DNA of 18,085 nucleotides. Source: a candidate division TA06 bacterium SM23_40. Lineage in GTDB: Bacteria > LJUI01 > SM1-40. The position numbers were made by a program, and so were the translations under genes. A model generated the notes under the pieces. It had not been told where the DNA came from. It did no database searches and saw only the letters and a program-made list of their open reading frames with translations. Within the stretch, counting starts at the first letter, position 1; every line of letters begins with the position of its first letter. The stretch lies in assembly GCA_001303705.1 (NCBI GenBank), contig LJUI01000051.1, positions 1-18,085 of the forward strand, in the 5' to 3' direction. Shown here in pieces: positions 1 through 16,063 of the stretch.

Positions 1-746
1 CCAGTGGCCTCGTCAAAGCAGCAACCACCGGCAACGCTCGACGGTATCCCGGAGTTCACCGTACACGACACGCCCGTGTAGACCAGGGCAACAGGGTCAA
101 ACTGCCGCAGATTGTAGAGATTTTGCTCGAACACCCACAGCCACGGACCATCAGGGCTGTTGTTGTCATACGCCATCCCGTACTTCGCATACACGGCGTC
201 TGGCGTCGTCGTCAGAACCACGAGCGGCGGGGTCGTGAACGAATAGATCGGATCGTAGAAGTCACCAGTCCACCAGACACCCGTAACCTGATCGTACGCC
301 AGCGCACGGTTGGGATTCTCAGGACCAGGGTTCGACGTGACGTAGTTACCGAACTGGTCATACGCGTCGATGTTCGTTGAGAAACTACCCCAGATGTACT
401 CCTCAGTCTCCGCCAGGTCGCGGAGACCCCAACCATTCGATCCGGCCATCTGCTGATACGTCCCGACCAGATTACAGTTCTCGTCGAACTGGTAAATGTA
501 GTTCGGATCCAACCCGCTGTTGCCGCCGGTCACCCAGTGATATCCCCACTTCCACTCGTTGCCGAGTATGTGGTTGTCACCCGTCGGGGCCTCCATGAGC
601 GGATCGCAGAAGTCAGCCGGGGTAACCTGGCCAGGCTCCGCGCTCCGATCCTCGGTAACCGGCGCTACTTTCACAGCACTGGTGGCATAGGCCAGACTCG
701 CCAGCATCACAGCCATCAGTCCTGCCAGGAAGATACTTTTCCTCAT
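1..746 (-). CDS. Secreted propeller-like protein, paralog A (3' end cut by window edge)
   Basis: The open frame runs from ATG at 746 off the left edge: 248 codons with no stop or frameshift. The N-terminus is a signal peptide (basic MRKS, then a hydrophobic stretch ending near ATSA, about residue 23), so the product is exported. The rest is nearly identical to the N-terminal 218 residues of the gene at 1301-2995, so this is a tandem duplicate. It differs in lacking a four-residue WAWD insertion near residue 51 and in keeping 36 residues (about 183-218, including GMAYDNNSPDGPWLWVF) that the other copy lacks. Those residues read like a beta-propeller blade. A GGAGG lies just 5' of the start. 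It has its own promoter at 1138-1166 and a leader of about 385 nt. Function unknown; a secreted or surface role is inferred. Confidence 0.85.
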   Translation of the reverse strand, partial: MRKSIFLAGLMAVMLASLAYATSAVKVAPVTEDRSAEPGQVTPADFCDPLMEAPTGDNHILGNEWKWGYHWVTGGNSGLDPNYIYQFDENCNLVGTYQQMAGSNGWGLRDLAETEEYIWGSFSTNIDAYDQFGNYVTSNPGPENPNRALAYDQVTGVWWTGDFYDPIYSFTTPPLVVLTTTPDAVYAKYGMAYDNNSPDGPWLWVFEQNLYNLRQFDPVALVYTGVSCTVNSGIPSSVAGGCCFDEAT

Positions 747-1131
747 CTTCCTCCCCCCTCCTGTTATGTTACCCATTCCCTACGAAGCGCGTTGCGAGCT
801 TCTGGACCCTCCCGGGATCACGCCATCGACGCCAGACCGGGAAGCTCCCGGATCATGCCTGATCCGATAAGCTCGCACCTCCCATGAGCCCGCCAGACGA
901 CTCCCGTCATCACCCCCTTTCCACGACGGCCACGCGGGCCCTGACTCTGCCGCCGTCGGTTGGTGTGACAGCCTCCCTACGTACTCTACAAACGAGCTGC
1001 TACTGAGGTAGCTCGCTCTCATAGGGACAAAAGACCCACCTCTGCCGTGTCCCGCTCCGATCGCGGTTTCTCCAGAGCTCGTAGCCACATAGGAATACTC
1101 CACCCGGCAGGGCAGGCCTCACCTCTTGATG
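747..1131 (-). promoter_or_regulatory. Long structured 5' leader of paralog A
   Basis: No credible gene lies between the promoter and the start at 746. The RNA can form a closing stem (869-876 with 794-801, 8 bp), a hairpin with 6-bp arms at 850-855/860-865, a hairpin at 837-842/846-851 that shares two bases with it, and an upstream stem at 924-930/952-958. All four recur in the leader of paralog B, and one pair has changed A-T to G-C with pairing kept. The first 23 nt near the transcription start (1106-1128) match the B leader at 20 of 23 positions. I do not recognise it as a named riboswitch. Structure is inferred from two copies only. Confidence 0.6.
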
Positions 1132-1137
1132 AGCGCC

Positions 1138-1166
1138 ATTGTACGACTCTCGCCGAACCCTGTCAA
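1138..1166 (-). promoter_or_regulatory. Sigma-70-type promoter for paralog A
   Basis: On the minus strand, -35 TTGACA (1161-1166), a 17-nt spacer and -10 TACAAT (1138-1143). The -35 is perfect and the -10 has one mismatch to consensus. The predicted start is near 1131, giving a leader of about 385 nt. Both hexamers and the spacer length are identical to the promoter of paralog B, but the spacer sequence differs. Confidence 0.85.
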
Positions 1167-1223
1167 GCGAAATGTAAGCCATCGATCACGCCCCCTCAAA
1201 AGTGGCCAGTGACACATAGTGAA

Positions 1224-1251
1224 GCGCGGGGGTTCATCACAACCCCCGCGC
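1224..1251 (-). terminator. Strong hairpin between paralogs B and A
   Basis: A perfect 11-bp stem (1224-1234 with 1241-1251, arms GCGCGGGGGTT/AACCCCCGCGC) with a 6-nt loop lies about 50 nt past the stop of paralog B and before the promoter of A. Only a short T-run (TT) follows on the minus strand, so it may be a weak intrinsic terminator or a 3'-end stabiliser. A smaller 5-bp hairpin with a GAAA loop (minus strand) sits at 1260-1273. Confidence 0.55.
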
Positions 1252-1300
1252 CTCTCGAACGCTCTTTCGAGCGGTTGTCGGCTCAGCCGAGTCCGCTGCC

Positions 1301-2995
1301 CTAGAAGGCAACAAACTCCATCACGACATCCGCCAGGAAGTCGGTCCCACCGAGCTCGAACGACGTGCCAAGCGTCTTGCCTGTGCCGAAATTGGCAATG
1401 CCGATCTGATCCATGTTGTCCGGGTTCTGGAACACGAGCTCAGCCGGCGGGATCGGTGAGAGTTCATCGATCCAGCTGTTCTCGCCGAAGTACGGAGAAA
1501 CCAGACCCCCAAGACCCGGCATCAGCGTGTTCGCCACGCCGTTGACCGTGAACAGATCACTACCGCCGTCGCCTACAGCCATGATCCCGAACGCCGGCCC
1601 GAAGTCATGCCCGCCAACCATCGGATCGTAGTACCAGAAATCGCCGCCCTCAGCATACACCTTGCCGCCGGCTGCGATGTAGGCCTCGATCTGCAGGGCC
1701 TCGGGCGCGCCCGCCGCGATGAACCCGCTGTTCGGGTAGATGCCCATGAGAACAAACAGGCCCATGTGGTCGGGCAGGTTCCAGTCGCCCAGGTTGACCA
1801 CAAACTCGTGCGTGTGGCCCATAGCTGTCAGCACATCGGCAATCGGCTGCCCGCTGATCGGGGTCATGTCAAGCTCCCAGATCAGGAACTCGGGCGGCAT
1901 GTACACGTCGATGATGCAGAGGTTGTGCTCGATGTAGATGCTCTGCTCAGGCTGACCAGGACCACTCCAGTCCGGCCAGCAGTGGCCGCCGCCACCGACC
2001 TCGGTGCCCAGAGGTGTGGCCATCGGGACGGTGAAGTAGAACAGTTCCGTGTAGCTGCCCGGCCCGACCGGACCAACCATCGTGTTCTGGATGAACCGAG
2101 GATGGCCAGCAGGCTCCCTACCAAGGCCGCCGCCAACGAGGAACGTGTTCGACATGCCCCACGGACCTGTGTCCACATACTTCCAGTTCACGGTCAGCTC
2201 GATCACGTCGCCGGGCAGATAGTACTCGGCATCCGTGGAAACGTCCGTGACCTTGCAGTATGCCGTGTCACCAGCACAACCCTCGGTGATGTCCACCGCG
2301 AACAGATGGTCCGGAGTACCCTGGATGATACCGTAGATGTCACCAGTGGCCTCGTCAAAGCAGCAACCACCGGCAACGCTCGACGGTATCCCGGAGTTCA
2401 CCGTACACGACACGCCCGTGTAGACCAGGGCAACAGGCGTCGTCGTCAGGACCACGAGCGGCGGGCTCGTGAACGAGTAGATCGGATCGTAGAAGTCACC
2501 GGTCCACCAGACACCCGTGTCAGGATCGCGCGCAAGCGCGCGGTTGGGATTCTCAGGACCGGGGATCGACGTGACGTAGTTGCCGAACTCGTCATACGCG
2601 TCGAGGTTCATCGAGAAACTACCATAGATGTAGTCCTCGTCCTCCGCCAGATCGCGGAGACCCCAACCATTCGACCCGGCCATCTGCTGATACGTCCCGA
2701 CCAGATTGCCAACATCGTCGTACTGGTAGATGTAGTTCGGGTCCAACCCGCTGTTGCCGCCGGTCACCCAGTGATATCCCCACTTCCACTCGTTGCCGAG
2801 AATGTGGTTGTCACCAGTCTGAGCCTCCATGTCCCAGGCCCAGAGCGGATCGCAGAAGTCGGCAGGCGTCACCTGGCCAGGCTCCGCACACCGATCCTCG
2901 GTAACTGGCGCTACTTTCACAGCACTGGCGGCATAGGCCAGACTCACCAGCATCACAGCCATCAGTCCTGTCAGGAAGATACTTCTCCTCATCAT
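1301..2995 (-). CDS. Secreted two-part protein, paralog B (propeller-like N-terminus, GATase-like C-terminus)
   Basis: 564 residues. There is a signal peptide (MRRSIFLTGLMAVMLVSLAYAASA), then a Trp/Tyr/Gly-rich region to about residue 240 that looks like partial beta-propeller blades. A beta-rich middle with Cys pairs follows. The C-terminal part (about 370-564, with GLFVLMGIYPNSGF and AYIAAGGKVYAEGGD) resembles the GATase1/ThuA-like fold found in some secreted bacterial proteins. That similarity is my recollection and no catalytic residues can be assigned. Two ATGs lie in tandem; the second (2992) matches the start of paralog A and is better spaced from GGAGG, so 2992 may be the true start. 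Relative to A, this copy lacks 108 bp in frame after residue P187 and has a 12-bp insertion encoding WAWD. No sorting signal is obvious at the C-terminus. Confidence 0.9.
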   Translation of the reverse strand: MMRRSIFLTGLMAVMLVSLAYAASAVKVAPVTEDRCAEPGQVTPADFCDPLWAWDMEAQTGDNHILGNEWKWGYHWVTGGNSGLDPNYIYQYDDVGNLVGTYQQMAGSNGWGLRDLAEDEDYIYGSFSMNLDAYDEFGNYVTSIPGPENPNRALARDPDTGVWWTGDFYDPIYSFTSPPLVVLTTTPVALVYTGVSCTVNSGIPSSVAGGCCFDEATGDIYGIIQGTPDHLFAVDITEGCAGDTAYCKVTDVSTDAEYYLPGDVIELTVNWKYVDTGPWGMSNTFLVGGGLGREPAGHPRFIQNTMVGPVGPGSYTELFYFTVPMATPLGTEVGGGGHCWPDWSGPGQPEQSIYIEHNLCIIDVYMPPEFLIWELDMTPISGQPIADVLTAMGHTHEFVVNLGDWNLPDHMGLFVLMGIYPNSGFIAAGAPEALQIEAYIAAGGKVYAEGGDFWYYDPMVGGHDFGPAFGIMAVGDGGSDLFTVNGVANTLMPGLGGLVSPYFGENSWIDELSPIPPAELVFQNPDNMDQIGIANFGTGKTLGTSFELGGTDFLADVVMEFVAF

Positions 2996-3603
2996 CCTTC
3001 CTCCCTACTACTTACATTGTCCATTTCCTACGAAGCGTGGTGCGAGCTTGGTAACCCTCCCGGGATGACGTCATCGACGCTCCACCGGGAAGCTCCCGGA
3101 TCGCGCTCGATCCGATAAGCTCACCCCTCCCATGAGCCCGTCACACGGCTCCAATCATCACCCCCTTCCTCGACGGCCAACCGGGCTCACGTTCTGCCGC
3201 CGTCGATTTCGTGTTCTCAATCTTTAGGTAACCGGATACATCTATCACTCTCCCGGTGGGAGAGCTATGAGCCTTGGGGGTGGCCCCACATCACATCCCC
3301 GGGTTCGGCTACGCTTCACCAGTCGTCCCCGCCGAAGCGTCCAGCCGCTTCCCTGCCCGAGGTTCACCACAACCCCACCCAATGACGAACTATCCACCGG
3401 CCTCGGAAACAGCCGAGCCACCCAACCTCCGCCAGGGACACGTGTCCGCACGGCCCCCCTCCGGTCCTCACCAGAGCCACCGCCCGAGGCTCGTCACCAC
3501 AATATGTACAAACCCGCCATTGCCATGTCTCTCCCCGTGGGCCTCATGGCTACGCCACGCATAGAGAAACATCACCTAGGCAGGGCGGGCTTCACTTCTT
3601 GGT
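2996..3603 (-). promoter_or_regulatory. Very long structured 5' leader of paralog B
   Basis: About 600 nt with no convincing gene. The part nearest the gene (3029-3210) is homologous to the A leader. It keeps a closing stem at 3117-3124/3042-3049, a hairpin at 3098-3103/3108-3113, a hairpin at 3085-3090/3094-3099, and a stem at 3170-3177/3199-3206 (8 bp). The part nearest the promoter also matches A (3579-3601). The middle (about 3211-3560) is absent from A and holds further hairpins, including 3248-3254/3258-3264 (7 bp, 3-nt loop), a GCCATG/CATGGC pair, and the palindrome GGACACGTGTCC. RNA structure is predicted by eye. Confidence 0.6.
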
Positions 3604-3609
3604 AAACCG

Positions 3610-3638
3610 ATTGTACACAACTGCCCTCTTCTTGTCAA
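3610..3638 (-). promoter_or_regulatory. Sigma-70-type promoter for paralog B
   Basis: On the minus strand, -35 TTGACA (3633-3638), a 17-nt spacer and -10 TACAAT (3610-3615). The hexamers and spacing are the same as for paralog A. The next gene downstream starts at 2992-2995, so the inferred leader is about 610 nt unless a nearer promoter exists. I saw no good nearer candidate. Confidence 0.8.
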
Positions 3639-3700
3639 CCGAAAACTGCGATTTTTTAGGCTTTTCCAGCCCCCTCCCGCGGACAGCCATCCCCGAACGA

Positions 3701-5599: not shown

Positions 5600-6335
5600 G
5601 CATTCGCCGGGTCGAAGGGCCTAAACGGTTAAGAGGGGACGCAGAGCGAAGGAAGAAGGTGCGCCGTACGAAGGGCTGCTGAAGACAAGAGTGTACAGTG
5701 TCAAAAGCGGCCTGCGGCGTACAAGGCGCACACAGAGTGAGAAGCAGAGGAAAGTAGGTGAAGGATGTGGAGTGTGACGAGGAGCGGGGAGGATGAGAAG
5801 AGTGTGCAGTACGAGGGCCGCCTCCAGCATCAAAATGAGGCGGGGCGCGTGAGAACGGCGCAGTGTAACAGGAACGGTACAGGATGAAGACGGTGTGCTG
5901 CAGAGAACCGGCCCCCAGCATGAGAACGCCGCACGTAGCGAGAAGGAGATCGAGTCTGCGAGAGGTATAAAGAAGGCAAGGAGCGCGCAGTGCGAGAGGC
6001 ATATGTAATATGAAGGCGCTCCGGATTACGCAAGAGGGACCATGCAACGTGAGAAGGGACATCGAGTGCGTGCACGACCTACGCGATGAGAACAAGGCAG
6101 ACCACGTGACGGGTGTCGGGAGGGGGCAGGGAGCGCGCAGTACAGAGAAAAGTCCGCGCCGGGAGAAGGAACGTGCATGGTATGAAAAAGGTGCATCATG
6201 AAGGTGGCGCGGAGCGTCAGAACCAGATGCGACAGGAGAAGAAACGAGCAGGGAGAGAGGAAACGAGCCATAGCAGTACGAAGATTCTCAACGCATCGAG
6301 GCGAACGGGGGATCCGGATGAAAGCCTGTCAGGTG
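5600..6335. other. Gene-free, purine-rich degenerate spacer (about 700 bp)
   Basis: The plus strand is dominated by A/G words such as GAGAAGG, GAGCGAAGG and GAAGGCGC, mixed with a recurring degenerate motif close to GCGCAGTRYGAG. Examples are near 5803-5815, 5857, 5981-5993, 6131-6143 and 6276-6283. The 10-mer GAGCGCGCAG occurs twice, 150 bp apart. ORFs here have the biased composition expected from such sequence, lack ribosome binding sites and match no fold I know. The spacer lies between the terminator at 6349-6396 and the protease promoter at 5565. Function unknown: it may be decayed repeat DNA, a noncoding RNA or neutral spacer. Confidence 0.6.
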
Positions 6336-8592: not shown

Positions 8593-9849
8593 CTACGGAA
8601 TAGACAGTGCCTGGGCGGCATCCAGTCTCCCCGCACCGAGCTGGCCAGCGAAGCTCGCGTTGAGACTGTCGATATCGACCGCCGCATCCAGAACGATGTC
8701 CATGACCTCGTCATGGGCGAGTCCCGGAGCCAGCGCCCACACAAGGGCCGCAGTCCCCGATATGAACGGAGCTGCCATAGACGTCCCGTCCCACCGAGCA
8801 CACAGATCATCCGAGAAGGCACTGTAGATGTCTACTCCGGGAGCGGTCAGAGAGACGAGGTCGCCATAATTGGAGAACGGCGCCTTCACGTCGAGAGTGT
8901 CAGTGGCGGCCACCGCATAGGTGTGTGGGCTCGCTGCCGGCATGTATTCCGGATTGGGGCTCACCGTATTGCCGGCCGTACAGACGATCAGGCACCCCGC
9001 ATCCCTGGCATATGCAAGAGCCTCCTGAAGCACCGGCGAGGTCAGCTGCATCCCGAGGCTCAGATTGATTATCCGGGCCTCCTCTTCCACAGCCTTGGCA
9101 ATCCCCTGGATGAGGTTGAAGAGCGTCCCGCGACCCTCCGCGTTGAGCACACGATAGACGGCGATCTCGCAGTCAGGTGCAACCAGCGCGATGATGCCTG
9201 CGATGTGAGTGCCGTGTCCACGGGCCTCGTCGACATAGCCATCCCAGTCGTTGTCGATTCCGTCCGGCTCCTCAGACGGATCGGGGTCATCGTCGACGAG
9301 GTCAGCTCCAGCCGTGCAGAGATGTCCGAGGAGCAACCAGTGATCGAGGTCGGCGCCTGTATCGAGAATGGCGACGCGTATTCCTTCGCCAGTAGACACC
9401 TCATGAGCTTCAGTGAGGCGGATCTGATCGACCGCGCGCTGCCACTCATAATCTTCGAGCGACGGATCGTTCTCGATGAATGGCATGCTCGACTGGTCTG
9501 CCTCGGGAGCCTCGAGCAGGAAATTCCTCTCCGTATAGATGATCCCGTCGAAATCCCTGATCTGTCCGATCACCTCGGACTCTGAGCTGTACCCCGGCAG
9601 CGTGACCCGGGCCACTCCTAAGACGGGGATCTCCTCGGCGGTCGTCGTCCCGAAGGTGATGTCTATCGTTTCCGTAGACATGCCCGGCTCCAGGACGACT
9701 AGCACTTCGGACGGCACGTACTCGACGCCCCCTCCCTGCGCCCTCTCCACCATCGGAAGGAGAACGAGAAGACCTGCGATCGCAACCGCAAGAGCTGTAC
9801 CGACCCGGAGGCGCGCGATACCATGAAGTTGTGAGACCGCGTCCTGCAT
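8593..9849 (-). CDS. Subtilisin-like serine protease (S8) of the sigma/CHAT operon
   Basis: 418 residues from ATG at 9849, chosen because AGGAG stands seven bases upstream; frames to 9882 and 10053 lack such a site and overlap the CHAT gene. A hydrophobic segment (about 17-33) ending LPMVERAQGG is a signal peptide or anchor. A short prodomain (about 45-115) follows, ending IIYTERNFLLEAP. The catalytic domain has Asp163 (AILDTGADLDH), His212 (GHGTHIAGI), oxyanion Asn294 (CTAGNTVSP) and Ser357 (GTSMAAPFISG). An acidic insert (DDDPDPSEEPDGIDNDWDGY, 186-205) may bind calcium. Unlike the 3701-5422 protease there is no C-terminal extra domain. It is last in the operon, 46 nt after the CHAT gene. 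An export-side effector, or processing of an envelope target, is inferred. Confidence 0.93.
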   Translation of the reverse strand: MQDAVSQLHGIARLRVGTALAVAIAGLLVLLPMVERAQGGGVEYVPSEVLVVLEPGMSTETIDITFGTTTAEEIPVLGVARVTLPGYSSESEVIGQIRDFDGIIYTERNFLLEAPEADQSSMPFIENDPSLEDYEWQRAVDQIRLTEAHEVSTGEGIRVAILDTGADLDHWLLLGHLCTAGADLVDDDPDPSEEPDGIDNDWDGYVDEARGHGTHIAGIIALVAPDCEIAVYRVLNAEGRGTLFNLIQGIAKAVEEEARIINLSLGMQLTSPVLQEALAYARDAGCLIVCTAGNTVSPNPEYMPAASPHTYAVAATDTLDVKAPFSNYGDLVSLTAPGVDIYSAFSDDLCARWDGTSMAAPFISGTAALVWALAPGLAHDEVMDIVLDAAVDIDSLNASFAGQLGAGRLDAAQALSIP

Positions 9850-9895
9850 GTCACTTCTCCTTTCGGACGAGGCACCCGACATTCGAGTCTCGCCA

Positions 9896-12739
9896 CTAGC
9901 CCCTACCCAACAGCACGAACGGAGCCCAGTAGTAAGGATGTGCGAATTCTCTCTTCGTCTCCAACATGGCTCCACGTAGCGAGCCACTCTTCGAATGTCC
10001 CGCCTTGAGTCGGCGATAGAAGTTCCCCATGATAATGGCTGTCGACTCGTCATGCACCTGCCAGAGGCTCACGACGAGCGAACGGACGCCAGCGTGCAGG
10101 AAGCCCCGAACCAGCCCGACCAGTTCATCGCCCCTCAGGACTTTTCCCACACCCGTCTGGCACCCGCTCAATGTAACCAGAGAAGCGTCCAGGCGCAAGT
10201 CGTAGAGGTCATAGATATTGAGCCATCCGTCGGCGAGCTTGAGTGACGAGAACATGGGGTTGCCCCCGCGGAATACCCCGTGACAGGCAAGATGTATCAT
10301 CCTCCCATCGCGCCCGTGCTGCCGCAGCTTATCGACCCCTGCCTCGTTTCCCACAAAAAGCAGCGCGTCATCGTAAATACGAGCGATCTGCTCGACCTCC
10401 GTGCTGATGTGGGGCGCGCCGTTCCCATCGACACCCAGGATCAATAACCTCTGCTCGTCCTCTTGACCATCTCCATCGCAGAGTCTGAGCACGGTCGCGC
10501 TCGGCGAGTAACGCACTTCGTGTCGATCGATGAGGAACTGCTCCCCATCGAATACCGCGTGGAAGGGAACGTAATGGAGTTGCCCGTGCGGGACGATCAC
10601 GAGTCTCCTCCCGTCGATCCTTCTCGCCATCGGCTCGACGAGCTCGGCATTGAGACGGCCGAGCGAGCAGAGAACGCTTTCGTACAAATGAGAATTGTGG
10701 CGCCGAACATACTCATCGCCGAGCTGGAATTTCTTGAGCTGGAATTGGAGCCTCGCCATCAGCCGATCGACGACCGCAACATCGGCGAGATGATCATATA
10801 TGTCGATGCTATCATGATCCATGGCGAACGCCATCACCCGGTCGCGAGCGATGTAGTATTCGATGAGCGTCTCGTCGGCGCCCAGGGATTCCCTGATCTT
10901 CTCAATCGGGATCGTCGACGCGCTGTGCAGGGAAGCGAGTTCGAAATCCTTGTGCCGCAGTTCTCTGAGGATATATGCGATTCTTCGCTCGGTTTCGGTG
11001 ATCTCCTGACGCAGATCCGATATTACTGATAGCGAGCGCCTCGTCCCCTGAGTGTCCAGATCGTTGAGCTGACTGTAGCGGAGATTGAGCCGTTCTCGCT
11101 GTTCCTGCAGCTCATCGACCAGCCGGGACGGGACGCGTCTCCCGTTCTTCACCTCTGCATGCGGACGGTATGTGAGCAGGTCAACGAGGGCTTTCGACTT
11201 CCCGCGCTCGACGTACTCGAGTGCCTTGTGGATGCTCCGCTGGGTACCGCCGCGGAGATAGTGGAGGACGATGTCCTCATACACACGGAACTTATCCGTA
11301 AGGAAGTTGGCCTTGTACTCATCCGCCCCGATCGTGCTCCACATCTGCTCCACCGATTCGACTGCGCGACGGAGGTACCGGCTCGCCTTTCCTCTCTCAC
11401 CCTCTCGCTCGCTGATCTTCCCCAACAAGTGATAACACTGGTAGTTGAGCCAGGGGGTCTCGTCTGCGGCAGCCCCACGAAGAGCCCGGCGGCACAGCGC
11501 GAGGGCATCGGCATGCTTGCCCAATTCAAATGATGCGCGGGCCATCTCCAGCCTGGCATACCGTCTCTTCGTCACCAGGCCAGCCCCGGCGAATACGTCA
11601 TGCGCCCGACGTGCGATCCGCAGCGCCTCGCGGACCTTCCCCTCCCGGCGGAGCAGCGTTGCCATGTACAGGTCGATCATAGCAGTCCATACATGGTTAC
11701 CTTCACGTCCGAAGATCCTGCGCGCGGCTCGCAAGTGTTCTAAGGCCTGACCGTATTGCCCGAGATGGATCTCTGCAATCGCCTGATTCGAGAGGGCTCT
11801 TCCCGCCTCATATGCCATACCGAGTTCATCGAATCCCAGCCTCGCGGCCTCACAGAGGTGCACGACATCGGCATGCAGGTTCAGTCGGAGATAGACCTCA
11901 GCCTCATCCAGGTTAGTGAGCGACACATGCCGCACGTCCCCCAGCTCCTCGAAGATGTGACGTACATCGTGATAGCTCTGGATCGCCTGATGGTATCGGT
12001 CGGTGAGGAAGAACAGATACGCGATATTGTAGTCGACCTGCGCTACTCTCGGCCCCTGACCGCGCTCGGCAAACTGGCCTCTGGCCGACTGATAGAGCGC
12101 CAGGGCCTTGTCGAATTCACCGAGGCTGGTGAGGACGTTCGCGCGGTTGAAATCGACGAGTGCTTGTTCGTAGCTCTTGCCGAGTCTGCCGAAGGTCCTC
12201 TTCGCCCGGCCGTAGCAACGGAGGGCCTCACGATACCGGTCGAGCCGGTGATAGATGTTCCCAGTGTTCGTATCGAGCTTCGCGACGAGGCTGGCCTTCC
12301 GATGCTGCTTGAACACCGCTCTCGCCCGGTCGGCAAGCTTGAGGGCACGATTGTACCGACCGAGATACATCAGCGCGTCGACATGTCCCATTTGAACCTG
12401 AGCCCACTCGAGATCCGACCCCTGCCTCCTGAACCACCGCGCGACCTCCCGGTAGTCCTCAGCAGCCTGCCGGTATGAACCCATGGCATGGCGCGCCTTC
12501 GCCCGAGCCCACCTGCCATGTAGGCGGATCTCGGCATCCCGGACAACGGTGCCGATCTCCAACCAGAGATCAGCCAACTCCAGCGCCCGAGAAGCATCTT
12601 TCCACAGCAGATCGTTCAGTCTTGCTGTGAGTTCCCGTATCGCACTGTGATCAAACCGCCCGCGGTGCTTGCGGATGTAGTCGCAGCGTCTCTTTCCCCG
12701 AAGGGTCTGTACACGAGCGAGCAGCGCATCGAAGGTCAT
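9896..12739 (-). CDS. TPR-CHAT protein (caspase-like protease with tetratricopeptide repeats)
   Basis: 947 residues, no signal peptide, presumably cytoplasmic. The first half (about 70-465) is a run of TPR helix pairs (for example YHRLDRYREALRCYGRAK, LGEFDKALALYQSARGQF, LGQYGQALEHLRAAR) about 40 residues apart. A helical linker (about 500-600) has coiled-coil character. The C-terminal CHAT domain (about 700-945) includes LVIVPHGQLHYVPFHAVF, the His motif IHLACHG (His820) and the Cys motif TLSGCQTG (Cys860), the predicted catalytic dyad, plus VSLWQVHDEST and YYWAPFVLLG. CHAT is a clan CD (caspase-like) peptidase family. TPR-CHAT proteins include the Csx29 protease of type III-E CRISPR and activators of bacterial gasdermins. 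No gasdermin or CRISPR effector is present here. ATG at 12739 lies 10 nt after the anti-sigma stop, with AGGTGA overlapping that stop, so the two are probably translated together. Confidence 0.95.
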   Translation of the reverse strand: MTFDALLARVQTLRGKRRCDYIRKHRGRFDHSAIRELTARLNDLLWKDASRALELADLWLEIGTVVRDAEIRLHGRWARAKARHAMGSYRQAAEDYREVARWFRRQGSDLEWAQVQMGHVDALMYLGRYNRALKLADRARAVFKQHRKASLVAKLDTNTGNIYHRLDRYREALRCYGRAKRTFGRLGKSYEQALVDFNRANVLTSLGEFDKALALYQSARGQFAERGQGPRVAQVDYNIAYLFFLTDRYHQAIQSYHDVRHIFEELGDVRHVSLTNLDEAEVYLRLNLHADVVHLCEAARLGFDELGMAYEAGRALSNQAIAEIHLGQYGQALEHLRAARRIFGREGNHVWTAMIDLYMATLLRREGKVREALRIARRAHDVFAGAGLVTKRRYARLEMARASFELGKHADALALCRRALRGAAADETPWLNYQCYHLLGKISEREGERGKASRYLRRAVESVEQMWSTIGADEYKANFLTDKFRVYEDIVLHYLRGGTQRSIHKALEYVERGKSKALVDLLTYRPHAEVKNGRRVPSRLVDELQEQRERLNLRYSQLNDLDTQGTRRSLSVISDLRQEITETERRIAYILRELRHKDFELASLHSASTIPIEKIRESLGADETLIEYYIARDRVMAFAMDHDSIDIYDHLADVAVVDRLMARLQFQLKKFQLGDEYVRRHNSHLYESVLCSLGRLNAELVEPMARRIDGRRLVIVPHGQLHYVPFHAVFDGEQFLIDRHEVRYSPSATVLRLCDGDGQEDEQRLLILGVDGNGAPHISTEVEQIARIYDDALLFVGNEAGVDKLRQHGRDGRMIHLACHGVFRGGNPMFSSLKLADGWLNIYDLYDLRLDASLVTLSGCQTGVGKVLRGDELVGLVRGFLHAGVRSLVVSLWQVHDESTAIIMGNFYRRLKAGHSKSGSLRGAMLETKREFAHPYYWAPFVLLGRG

Positions 12740-12749
12740 AGCCGATCAC

Positions 12750-13370
12750 CTAGAGCGAGACATCGCGGATATTGACATGGCCCATTTTCAGCCGGAGGCC
12801 TATACCGTACGTTGCTTCCTCGACCTCCTCGAATGCGAACTCCCCTATGGCATTAGTGAATGTGCTACCCACTTCCTCGTCTCCACGCATCAGCCGCACC
12901 GACTGAAACGCGAGGTCACCCGCCTCCCCCGCCAGCGGCAATACCTGGCCCAAGATGTCGATTGATCCCGGCCTCTCTAGCTCTCTCATCTGGAGATCAA
13001 TGTCCACGTCCTCCGCCCGATACAGAAGCTGTCGAACCTCCCCCCCCATGGTGCGCACACCCGCTGGTTGCAGGGAACTGTGGCTGTCGTAGACGAGCAC
13101 TGCCTCCAGCTCGCGATGCGCCGAAGCCCCACTCTGCTGACGCATCTTCGAATAGAGTGCGCATGCCCGCTCGATAACTTCCTTTGGAGGATCGACGAGT
13201 TCATCTGTCCTCATGAGAGCAATCAATCGGCCGATCCACGCGAGCTCCGCGTCACACGCGGGACATCCAGTCGCCAGATGCTCCTCTACCGCTCTCCTGT
13301 CCGGTTCCGACAGCTTTCCCTCCAGATAGTCAATAAGACGCTCGAACGAGACATGGACAGAATCCGACAT
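12750..13370 (-). CDS. Putative soluble anti-sigma factor: zinc-finger plus beta-sandwich domain
   Basis: 206 residues. The N-terminus resembles the anti-sigma zinc finger (zf-HC2 type): RLIDYLEGKLSEPDRRAVEEHL, then His31, Cys36 and Cys39 (H-x4-C-x2-C; the usual spacing is H-x3-C-x2-C). A helical stretch runs to about residue 85. The C-terminal part (about 133-206, with ILGQVLPLAGE, SVRLMRGDEEVGSTFTNAIGEFAFEEV) looks like a carboxypeptidase-regulatory/CnaB-like beta sandwich. There is no transmembrane segment, unlike most anti-sigma factors of this zinc-finger class. It lies 69 nt after the sigma gene and 10 nt before the CHAT gene. Sigma binding and its possible role as CHAT substrate are inferred from order and domain type. 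Confidence 0.75.
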   Translation of the reverse strand: MSDSVHVSFERLIDYLEGKLSEPDRRAVEEHLATGCPACDAELAWIGRLIALMRTDELVDPPKEVIERACALYSKMRQQSGASAHRELEAVLVYDSHSSLQPAGVRTMGGEVRQLLYRAEDVDIDLQMRELERPGSIDILGQVLPLAGEAGDLAFQSVRLMRGDEEVGSTFTNAIGEFAFEEVEEATYGIGLRLKMGHVNIRDVSL

Positions 13371-13439
13371 GTGATGACCCCCGGCTGATATTGTGGTTTT
13401 CTATGAACCAGTGCCGCGAGCGCCCAGCGGCAGCTCCCG

Positions 13440-14117
13440 CTATCGGTACCCCCTCCGCCCCAGGACCGCCCGCAGCTTCTCAAGGCATCTCGCCCTCGTC
13501 GGGCCCACGCTCCCCGGAGGGATACCGAGGCGCCGGCCGATTTCCTGATAGGAAAGCGGCTTCTCAAGATAGAATAGGTAGGTGATCATGCTCCGACAGC
13601 GTCTCGGCAACTGCTCTACTGCCCACCTGACAGTATTCTGCATCTCCAGCCGAACGAGTTCTTGCTCCGGCAGGGACCCCGAGACGACAGGATCTGTCAT
13701 CTCGTACGCAGCCCCCGCACTATTCTCTTTTCTCCTCCGCTTCTCGACCACTGTCCAGGACATGCGAGAAGCCGTCGTCAGGAGCCACGTGCCGAGCTTG
13801 GACGTCTCTCTGAGCGTGTCGAGCTTCTCCAGAAGGACGAGACAGACAGTCTGAAAGATATCGTCCGCCTCGGAGCAGGTCGCACCGCATTTGAGGGCTA
13901 CCGAGTAGATGAGCCGTCTGTACTTGAGGACGAGTTCCCCCCATCCTCTCTCGTCTCCCGCCAGACATCTCCGTATCAGCTCATCATCGGCAGAGAGTAC
14001 GTGCTGCCGCCGGCCCCTCCGCTGCACATCCGAGTAGATAGCACGCGAGGAAGGTTCTTGCGCGATTCCCCCGTAGACGTCGAACGCATGACCGATATCG
14101 CCTGAATCACTGCTCAA
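13440..14117 (-). CDS. ECF-type RNA polymerase sigma factor
   Basis: 225 residues. Region 2 spans about 43-115 (ADDELIRRCLAGDERGWGEL, KYRRLIYSVALK, EADDIFQTVCLVLLEKLD, LGTWLLTTASR). Region 4 spans about 160-220 (WAVEQLPRRCRSMITYLFYL, then the helix-turn-helix LSYQEIGRRLGIPPGSVGPT RARCLEKLRAVL). Regions 1 and 3 are absent, as in ECF factors. The frame opens at TTG (14117), with GAGGG eight bases upstream. The first 40 residues are not part of the fold, so GTG at 14027 (residue 31) is an alternative start, though with a weaker site. It is the first gene of the operon with the anti-sigma, CHAT and S8 genes. It probably directs a small regulon and perhaps its own operon; the promoter found upstream looks sigma-70-like, though. 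Confidence 0.93.
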   Translation of the reverse strand: MSSDSGDIGHAFDVYGGIAQEPSSRAIYSDVQRRGRRQHVLSADDELIRRCLAGDERGWGELVLKYRRLIYSVALKCGATCSEADDIFQTVCLVLLEKLDTLRETSKLGTWLLTTASRMSWTVVEKRRRKENSAGAAYEMTDPVVSGSLPEQELVRLEMQNTVRWAVEQLPRRCRSMITYLFYLEKPLSYQEIGRRLGIPPGSVGPTRARCLEKLRAVLGRRGYR

Positions 14118-14347: not shown

Positions 14348-14435
14348 CCAAAAAGTGAGGCTCACGGCGTCTTCTTCTCTCCGCGCTTCAGTCGTCATGC
14401 GCTTCACTCACTACGCTTTATGTTTCACTCCTTCC

Positions 14436-14540
14436 GCCTCACTCTCTGCTCGTTGCGCTTCACACCTCACTCCTTACGCCTCACTCTGTGCCCGTTGCAC
14501 TTCACCCCTCACTCCTTACGCCTCGCCCCTCAGTCCTTAC
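14436..14540. repeat. 42-bp tandem repeat in a pyrimidine-rich spacer
   Basis: Two adjacent 42-bp units (14436-14477 and 14478-14519) differ at only four positions. A third, shortened copy (14520-14540) follows. Shorter relatives of the core CTCACTCCTTACGCCTC continue on both sides (about 14400-14590). The last ones run into the 3' end of the flavoprotein gene. The minus strand, sense for flanking genes, is purine-rich here. There is no regular repeat-spacer pattern, so it is not CRISPR. Role unknown. Confidence 0.8.
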
Positions 14541-14578
14541 ACTCCAGGCTCCACTCCTAACGCTCCACGCTTCACTCC

Positions 14579-16063
14579 TTACGCCCGACGTCTCGTGGTT
14601 GTCCCTTCACGTTTTCCACCTCTATCTTCGCCTTTCATCTCTATCCCGGCCAGCCGCCGGGCCATCGCCACCTTCTCGTCGATCCCTGCGTTGGCCCAGA
14701 TGACGAGCTTCGCCCCATCAGGCGATCCACCTCCATGGTGGCACCCCGGTATGCCCGCACCAACAGTCAGCCACTCAACGAGGCGTGCTCCCCGAACGCG
14801 CGTCTCGGCATCCGATGCCGCCTTGAGATACTTCCGCACGAGCTCGCCGTATTCCTCGCTCTGGAAGTCCCTCCAGGACGGCATACAGCCGGTCTCACCG
14901 ATTCCGCCGCAAATGTCCTGCGCGATATTCCTCGTATCGCAGGGGAGCTTGGCGACCAGCACCTTGTTAACATTGGCGAGGAGCGGATCACAGATCCAGG
15001 AGCCGGAAGAGTGCTGTCGTCCCATGGCGGCCGCGGCGATTCCCAGGCCGAATGTCACCTCGTTGTTGATGCACATGTTGACGACCTTATCCCGGAACAC
15101 CTTATCGGCCAACCCATTAGCCCTCCCCACAAGCATCGCAGCCCCCACCATCACATCCCCCTGCCCGGCAACGCATGCGCCGATGGCGGATCTGTACGGC
15201 ATGATGAAGTTCATCACCGCGGGGAGTGTAAAGTCGCACTCCCCACACATGAAGACACGCTCCCGGGGAATGAAGACATCCTCGAAGAAGAGGTACCCCT
15301 GTGTGATGCCTCCTGCGTTGGAGGGGACATCAAACCCCTTCTCCAGATCTCTTAGATCGCTCGGATGTCTCGCCTCGACGATCGTGAGCCCCTCGGCATC
15401 TCGGGGGACGACAAACGAGATCGCATAATCAGCATCCTCAGCGCCGTATCGCGAGCCGGGAAGGACGAAGATCTCATTCGCCGCCGCGGCCCCGGCAATC
15501 ATAACCTTCGCGCCGCGCACTATGATCCCGTCATCGCGCCGTTCGACGACACGCAGATACATGTCGGGATCCGCCTGCTTCGAAGGCGGCAGCGTGCGGT
15601 CACCTTTCGGGTCAGTGAGAGCACCGCAGACTGCGATGTCCTCCGACTGCGCCCGGCGCAGCCAATCCATCAGTCGCGTGTGGTAGTCGGTGCCATGTTT
15701 CTCATCGATATCGTAGGTCACAGCCCACATCGAGTTGAGCCCCGTCCAGCCGACACAACGCCCACCCGTGCAGGTCCCCGTCAGGTTGAAGACGAATCTC
15801 TTCATGCGGGAGTTGGCAAACATGTCTTCCGGCTTGCGAAGTATCGAAAGATAACGAGAGATTCTCTCGCCGGTGAGATGAGACGTCGTCGTCATCATCT
15901 CTGCATATTCTCGATCGAGCGACGCCTCGTATATTCTCCCGTGGCCCTCAACAGTGCGCCTCGTGGCCGGGTGCGTTGTTACATCTTCGATCAGCTCCCC
16001 GAACTTGTAGACATTGGCACGGAGACCCCTGAGGCTCTCCTTATATTCCTCCTTCGTCTTCAT
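14579..16063 (-). CDS. AbfD-like flavoprotein (4-hydroxybutyryl-CoA dehydratase / 4-hydroxyphenylacetate 3-hydroxylase family)
   Basis: 494 residues, acyl-CoA dehydrogenase fold. Family features include MKTKEEYKESLRGLRANVY at the start, TDPKGDRTLPPSKQADPDMY, VVERRDDGIIVRGAKV, EDVFIPRERVFMCGE and CHHGGGSPDG. The true dehydratase binds FAD and a [4Fe-4S] cluster through Cys99, Cys103, His292 and Cys299 (Clostridium aminobutyricum numbering, aligned from memory). Here I see Cys98 (one residue shifted), Cys103 and Cys297, but Tyr290 where the His is expected. The segment of the catalytic Glu455 is Gly/Cys/His-rich. So the fold is clear but dehydratase activity is doubtful; a related CoA-ester or aromatic substrate is possible. 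The last about 18 residues, rich in Lys/Arg/Thr, exceed the family length and run into the repeat region. ATG at 16063 has GAGGAGG upstream. Monocistronic. Confidence 0.88.
   Translation of the reverse strand: MKTKEEYKESLRGLRANVYKFGELIEDVTTHPATRRTVEGHGRIYEASLDREYAEMMTTTSHLTGERISRYLSILRKPEDMFANSRMKRFVFNLTGTCTGGRCVGWTGLNSMWAVTYDIDEKHGTDYHTRLMDWLRRAQSEDIAVCGALTDPKGDRTLPPSKQADPDMYLRVVERRDDGIIVRGAKVMIAGAAAANEIFVLPGSRYGAEDADYAISFVVPRDAEGLTIVEARHPSDLRDLEKGFDVPSNAGGITQGYLFFEDVFIPRERVFMCGECDFTLPAVMNFIMPYRSAIGACVAGQGDVMVGAAMLVGRANGLADKVFRDKVVNMCINNEVTFGLGIAAAAMGRQHSSGSWICDPLLANVNKVLVAKLPCDTRNIAQDICGGIGETGCMPSWRDFQSEEYGELVRKYLKAASDAETRVRGARLVEWLTVGAGIPGCHHGGGSPDGAKLVIWANAGIDEKVAMARRLAGIEMKGEDRGGKREGTTTRRRA

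Follow-up and report, generated by a model that had tools for sequence, protein, structure and literature searches.

Candidate RNA motifs proposed by comparative genomics are backed by many aligned homologues, whereas the leader described here has two. Among the results of this approach in bacteria and metagenomes are candidate structured RNA motifs (PMC2864571, PMC8040213). Here, we analyzed a stretch of 18,085 nt (the window), in which an initial annotation had described a conserved leader RNA in front of two paralogous genes. The structured leaders belong to the minus strand and form part of the 5' UTRs of two paralogous genes arranged in tandem, both encoding signal-peptide-bearing proteins. 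Both sit between a consensus promoter and their own paralogous gene, with the promoters assigned by consensus only. We consider it rather probable that both 5' UTRs carry a selected, stable 83-nt three-way-junction RNA that works in cis to affect translation initiation or mRNA lifetime. The features of the two transcription units are the following.

1 to 746, minus strand: copy A downstream gene, start codon 746-744, secreted-type protein, truncated by the contig end
1301 to 2995, minus strand: copy B downstream gene, complete, 564 aa, signal-peptide-like N terminus
1138 to 1166, minus strand: copy A promoter, TTGACA-17-TACAAT, sigma-70, 11/12 consensus match
3610 to 3638, minus strand: copy B promoter, TTGACA-17-TACAAT, sigma-70, 11/12 consensus match
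772 to 793, minus strand: conserved segment from junction to ribosome-binding site in copy A, AACGCGCUUCGUAGGGAAUGGG, about 3 substitutions against copy B in the aligned part
794 to 876, minus strand: copy A three-way junction, 83 nt
876-869 with 801-794, minus strand: closing stem P3 of copy A
866-849, minus strand: hairpin P4 of copy A
847-837 with 815-805, minus strand: arm P5 of copy A, with a tip hairpin at 832-820
3042 to 3124, minus strand: copy B three-way junction, same structure

The N-terminal coding parts of the two paralogues share about 88% nucleotide identity, with a coding divergence of dN 0.065 and dS 0.245. The duplication took in the entire transcription unit, promoter too, and would by its dS of 0.24 be fairly recent. 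The 564-aa protein of copy B matches no Pfam and no NCBIfam family; relatives of the downstream protein in other phyla align over single domains at about 27 to 46% identity. At the contig start, 95 bases (1-95) are identical to part of the copy B gene, the paralogues being about 88% identical beyond. This has the appearance of an assembly that broke at a repeat of about k-mer length, so that the extreme end of copy A may be foreign to it. At 1200-1250, 3' of the stop of the copy B gene, lies a strong GC-rich inverted repeat, GGCGCGGGGGTT/AACCCCCGCGC, which is possibly the terminator of that gene; a clear U run is absent.

A consensus scan of 700-3700 found two promoter-like sites only, those of copies A and B. 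If these promoters are real, transcription of copy A would start near 1131 and give a leader of about 385 nt, and that of copy B would start near 3603 and give a leader of about 608 nt. The element thus lies on the sense strand between promoter and start codon, as a cis-regulatory mRNA leader should, with the promoters again known by consensus only. Near the promoters the two leaders are still homologous, though with greater divergence, and the middle of the copy B leader contains a long additional stretch compared with copy A. Between promoter and start codon no terminator-like site (a hairpin with a U run) was found in either copy. In both copies the AGGAAG of the ribosome-binding region can pair with CUUCCU of the first codons, the conservation of which says little because the CUUCCU stretch is also coding.

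The window holds further features outside the leaders. The minus-strand genes at 8593-14117 may make up a cluster that combines a sigma/anti-sigma pair with a CHAT/subtilase protease system:

13440 to 14117, minus strand: sigma-70-family gene
12750 to 13370, minus strand: zf-HC2 protein gene
9896 to 12739, minus strand: TPR-CHAT protein gene
8593 to 10053, minus strand: subtilase gene, the longest frame of which overlaps the TPR-CHAT gene

Upstream of the sigma-factor gene on the minus strand, and adjoining the end of an HpaB-like gene, a degenerate 21-nt tandem repeat of about 9 copies occupies 14400-14584 (consensus CGCTTCACTCCTTACGCTTCA), with a 42-nt unit scoring best. The stretch at 5600-6300, upstream of the subtilase gene, is purine-rich and has weak short direct repeats and no convincing gene.

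The leader region of copy A at 794-958 is exactly one homologous block, with its counterpart in copy B at 3042-3205 on the minus strand; the 165-nt block of copy A aligns with it at about 80% identity. Against a dinucleotide null, none of 300 controls matched the whole block, and its structure conservation index (SCI) was 0.91 versus 0.71 +/- 0.05. The consensus fold of the block reaches -67.4 kcal/mol in sense and -45.0 in antisense orientation. Within the block the structure is concentrated in the 83-nt junction. Both copies fold beyond shuffled sequence, as is expected of a conserved structured RNA: copy A reaches -49.9 kcal/mol (z -5.26) and copy B -42.1 kcal/mol (z -3.82), in each case with 0 of 200 shuffles as stable. 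The two-sequence consensus fold has -44.7 kcal/mol and a z of -7.2, and 0 of 500 column shuffles were as good. The antisense junctions fold more weakly (-35.5 and -33.5 kcal/mol), which is as expected for an RNA and not for a DNA palindrome. Across the 18 kb, 146 background windows of 83 nt had a mean z of -0.09 (sd 1.27, lowest -4.6). The copy A junction lies below the lowest of these and the copy B junction ranks with the most extreme, in a comparison that favours the junction windows since their boundaries were chosen as known. All 30 junction base pairs form in both copies and none is broken. The fold, as predicted, is real, unusually stable, on the sense strand and common to the two paralogous leaders. 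With the entire leader folded, the mean pairing probability of the junction stems is at least 0.98 in copy A, whereas P3 of copy B, which faces competing pairings, falls to 0.28; in shorter contexts it reaches 0.77 to 0.92. The predicted probabilities therefore suggest that the two leaders may behave differently.

Loops diverge more than stems, as the initial annotation had stated. In the block 6 of 76 paired sites changed against 25 of 91 unpaired ones (Fisher P=0.001), and in the junction 5 of 60 against 9 of 23 (P=0.002), both P values being optimistic because the choice of stems drew on both copies. When stems were predicted from one copy alone, the other copy had 7 broken pairs where 12.2 were expected (P=0.012); the reciprocal prediction gave 5 broken pairs against 10.0 (P=0.010). 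Divergence in the loops (25/91) is about that of synonymous sites (dS 0.24). Four junction pairs changed, one of them doubly (A-U to G-C) and three in a wobble-compatible way. The double change is the loop-closing pair of P4 (hairpin at 849-866 in A and 3097-3114 in B), where pairing is kept as described before, and the C-G to U-G change in the closing stem is likewise present. However, the reading of one compensatory pair as a mark of selection found no support. With two sequences only, the one compensatory pair of the junction compares with a null mean of about 0.46, and in a pair-shuffling control about half of the shuffles matched the single double change. Two sequences confer no power, so that covariation cannot become significant here, and the lone change by itself proves nothing. 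The broader claim of a conserved RNA structure is supported by stability in both copies, consensus score, strand asymmetry and pairing-preserving changes, but not by covariation, which does not exceed chance. Selection on the leader fold is likely, not proven. Judging from the dS of 0.24, part of the similarity between A and B is mere inheritance through the tandem duplication.

The stems that the initial annotation described as kept are not all equally good: the junction fold at 794-876 is far beyond chance, but the 5' part of the block at 885-958 is not above chance. The weaker structures are these:

885 to 958, minus strand: upstream part of the copy A block, with P1 and P2 in both copies
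958-952 with 930-924, minus strand: P1 of copy A, CGACGGC/GCCGUCG
941-934 with 893-886, minus strand: P2 of copy A, GGGCCCGC/GCGGGCUC
3133 to 3205, minus strand: upstream part of copy B, possible pseudoknot, not above chance
1033 to 1118, minus strand: hairpin near the inferred 5' end of copy A, terminal stem GGCCUGCC/GGUGGGUC (1118-1111 with 1040-1033)
3511 to 3591, minus strand: hairpin near the inferred 5' end of copy B, terminal stem AGCCCGCC/GGCGGGUU (3591-3584 with 3518-3511)

Together, P1 and P2 might form an H-type pseudoknot, which the folding results leave as possible only: the consensus fold of the upstream part has an alifold z of -1.9 (21/500), and the single-sequence values of -1.2 and +0.2 are ordinary. 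In the 5'-end hairpin the 8-bp terminal stem differs between A and B by one double and two wobble changes with no pair broken; its stability is unusual in copy B (z -4.0) but not in copy A (z -1.3).

None of the 4227 covariance models of Rfam 15 matched the window at its gathering score, and at E<=10 nothing relevant and no riboswitch appeared. The best match at E<=10 was an R1162-like plasmid antisense RNA at 1175-1253, outside the block, with 24.7 bits against a cut-off of 55. The statement that the leader fits no known class therefore stands as far as Rfam reaches. BLASTN of the leader returned the two copies and nothing else in its own genome, and short chance-level matches only in genomes of other phyla. 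We then searched with two covariance models, R1 for the 165-nt block and R2 for the 83-nt junction. In the host genome R1 found the two copies and one 10-bit match, and R2 the two copies only. In 385 genomes of other phyla R1 gave matches of 20 to 25 bits only and R2 gave none. We took the R1 matches as chance after inspecting three alignments; both loci checked for ORFs (2/2) lay inside genes. R2 had no match in 7 genomes from a phylum in which a protein relative occurs. The genomes searched with both models include those that hold the protein relatives, and the host itself is the single genome of its phylum in the set. Scans of the GTDB genome collection with the downstream protein (narrow, exact short matches) and with a P3/P4 DNA pattern (exact pattern) were both empty, in searches that diverged homologues may escape. 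Viral contigs and plasmids had no match.

The main rival explanation is that of ordinary duplicated DNA: a foldable GC-rich leader was carried along when its gene was duplicated, or was homogenised through gene conversion, and its fold serves no function. We regard it as unlikely, while giving it serious weight. The identity of about 88% in the N-terminal coding part at a dS of 0.24 speaks for it, as do the duplication of the whole unit with its promoter, the one double change that chance yields about half the time and the other 83-nt windows of the GC-rich region that reach a z near -4.6. However, duplication alone explains neither the consensus z of -7.2 (0/500) nor stems that diverge less than loops. 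Another rival is a DNA-level element, in which the palindromes GGATC-N6-GATCC and CCGGGAAGCTCCCGG would be protein-binding operators. Both copies retain these short inverted repeats, which speaks for it. Against it, the repeats are situated about 265 to 520 nt downstream of the presumed transcription starts, junction changes on one side alone preserve the pair solely as G-U in the RNA of the minus strand, and the antisense orientation folds less strongly; such operators are very improbable in our view.

Control by a metabolite-binding riboswitch, whose aptamer and expression platform would free or hide the ribosome-binding site, appears improbable. The junction and the possible upstream pseudoknot do look switch-like, and there are alternative pairings, with CCGGGAGCUUCCCGG able to form its own hairpin and CGACG pairable with CGUCG. 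Still, folding of the pseudoknot part does not exceed chance, and even with the threshold relaxed to E<=10 the Rfam riboswitches give no match. The element also stands only before two secreted-protein genes of one genome and not before metabolic or transport genes. A riboswitch aptamer would be expected before several genes of a common pathway; here both of the two copies precede paralogues of one gene. A translated leader peptide or attenuator is hardly credible. A frame of 31 codons exists in copy A at 913-818, but its homologue in copy B runs into a stop within a few codons, and A and B do not have the downstream stop in common. We rejected the leader-peptide attenuator on this interruption of the A frame in B, and the intrinsic-terminator attenuator on the lack of a terminator-like site in either leader. 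Transcription attenuation, one of the classes that had been proposed, is for the latter reason unlikely, whereas a riboswitch and a protein-binding leader, the other two, cannot be told apart from the present data.

The selected junction RNA acting in cis remains the reading that we prefer. The position of the junction, the fold common to both copies and the excess stability of the sense strand were established by computation. Transcribed from the consensus promoter, the junction would form a rigid block 5' of the ribosome-binding site, about 47 nt before the start codon in both leaders, and might in this way act on translation initiation or mRNA lifetime; the second hairpin at the 5' end possibly joins in. 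Since the leaders lack both an intrinsic terminator and a conserved leader peptide, we infer that translation or mRNA lifetime is the likeliest level of control. The element is probably a cis-acting structured leader restricted to its lineage. This reading draws on two sequences from one duplication, and as no homologue was found elsewhere, deep conservation would not be demonstrable from them. A bolder version, in which the junction, the upstream pseudoknot and the 5'-end hairpin make up a new class of regulatory RNA in an isolated phylum that controls surface or secreted proteins in response to a signal, seems doubtful to us. If the junction RNA is real, it would add a structured leader not described before, from a lineage of which hardly any relatives have been sequenced, and comparison of paralogues within one genome could expose RNA structure where related genomes are lacking. 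Practical interest is limited pending further homologues or a function.

Several described systems can be set beside this locus. With the many riboswitch families of Rfam it shares the character of a cis-regulatory-type leader with a multistem junction, and no family matches here. The candidate motifs of the comparative-genomics studies (PMC2864571, PMC8040213) are likewise predicted from sequence and without an assigned function; the comparison with them extends as far as Rfam holds them. The bacterial structured cis-regulatory leaders that act as 5' UTRs on translation or stability differ from ours, which has two copies only, both before paralogous secreted-protein genes and in one lineage. 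Like them, it has a long 5' UTR behind a sigma-70 promoter and places a stable junction upstream of the ribosome-binding site.
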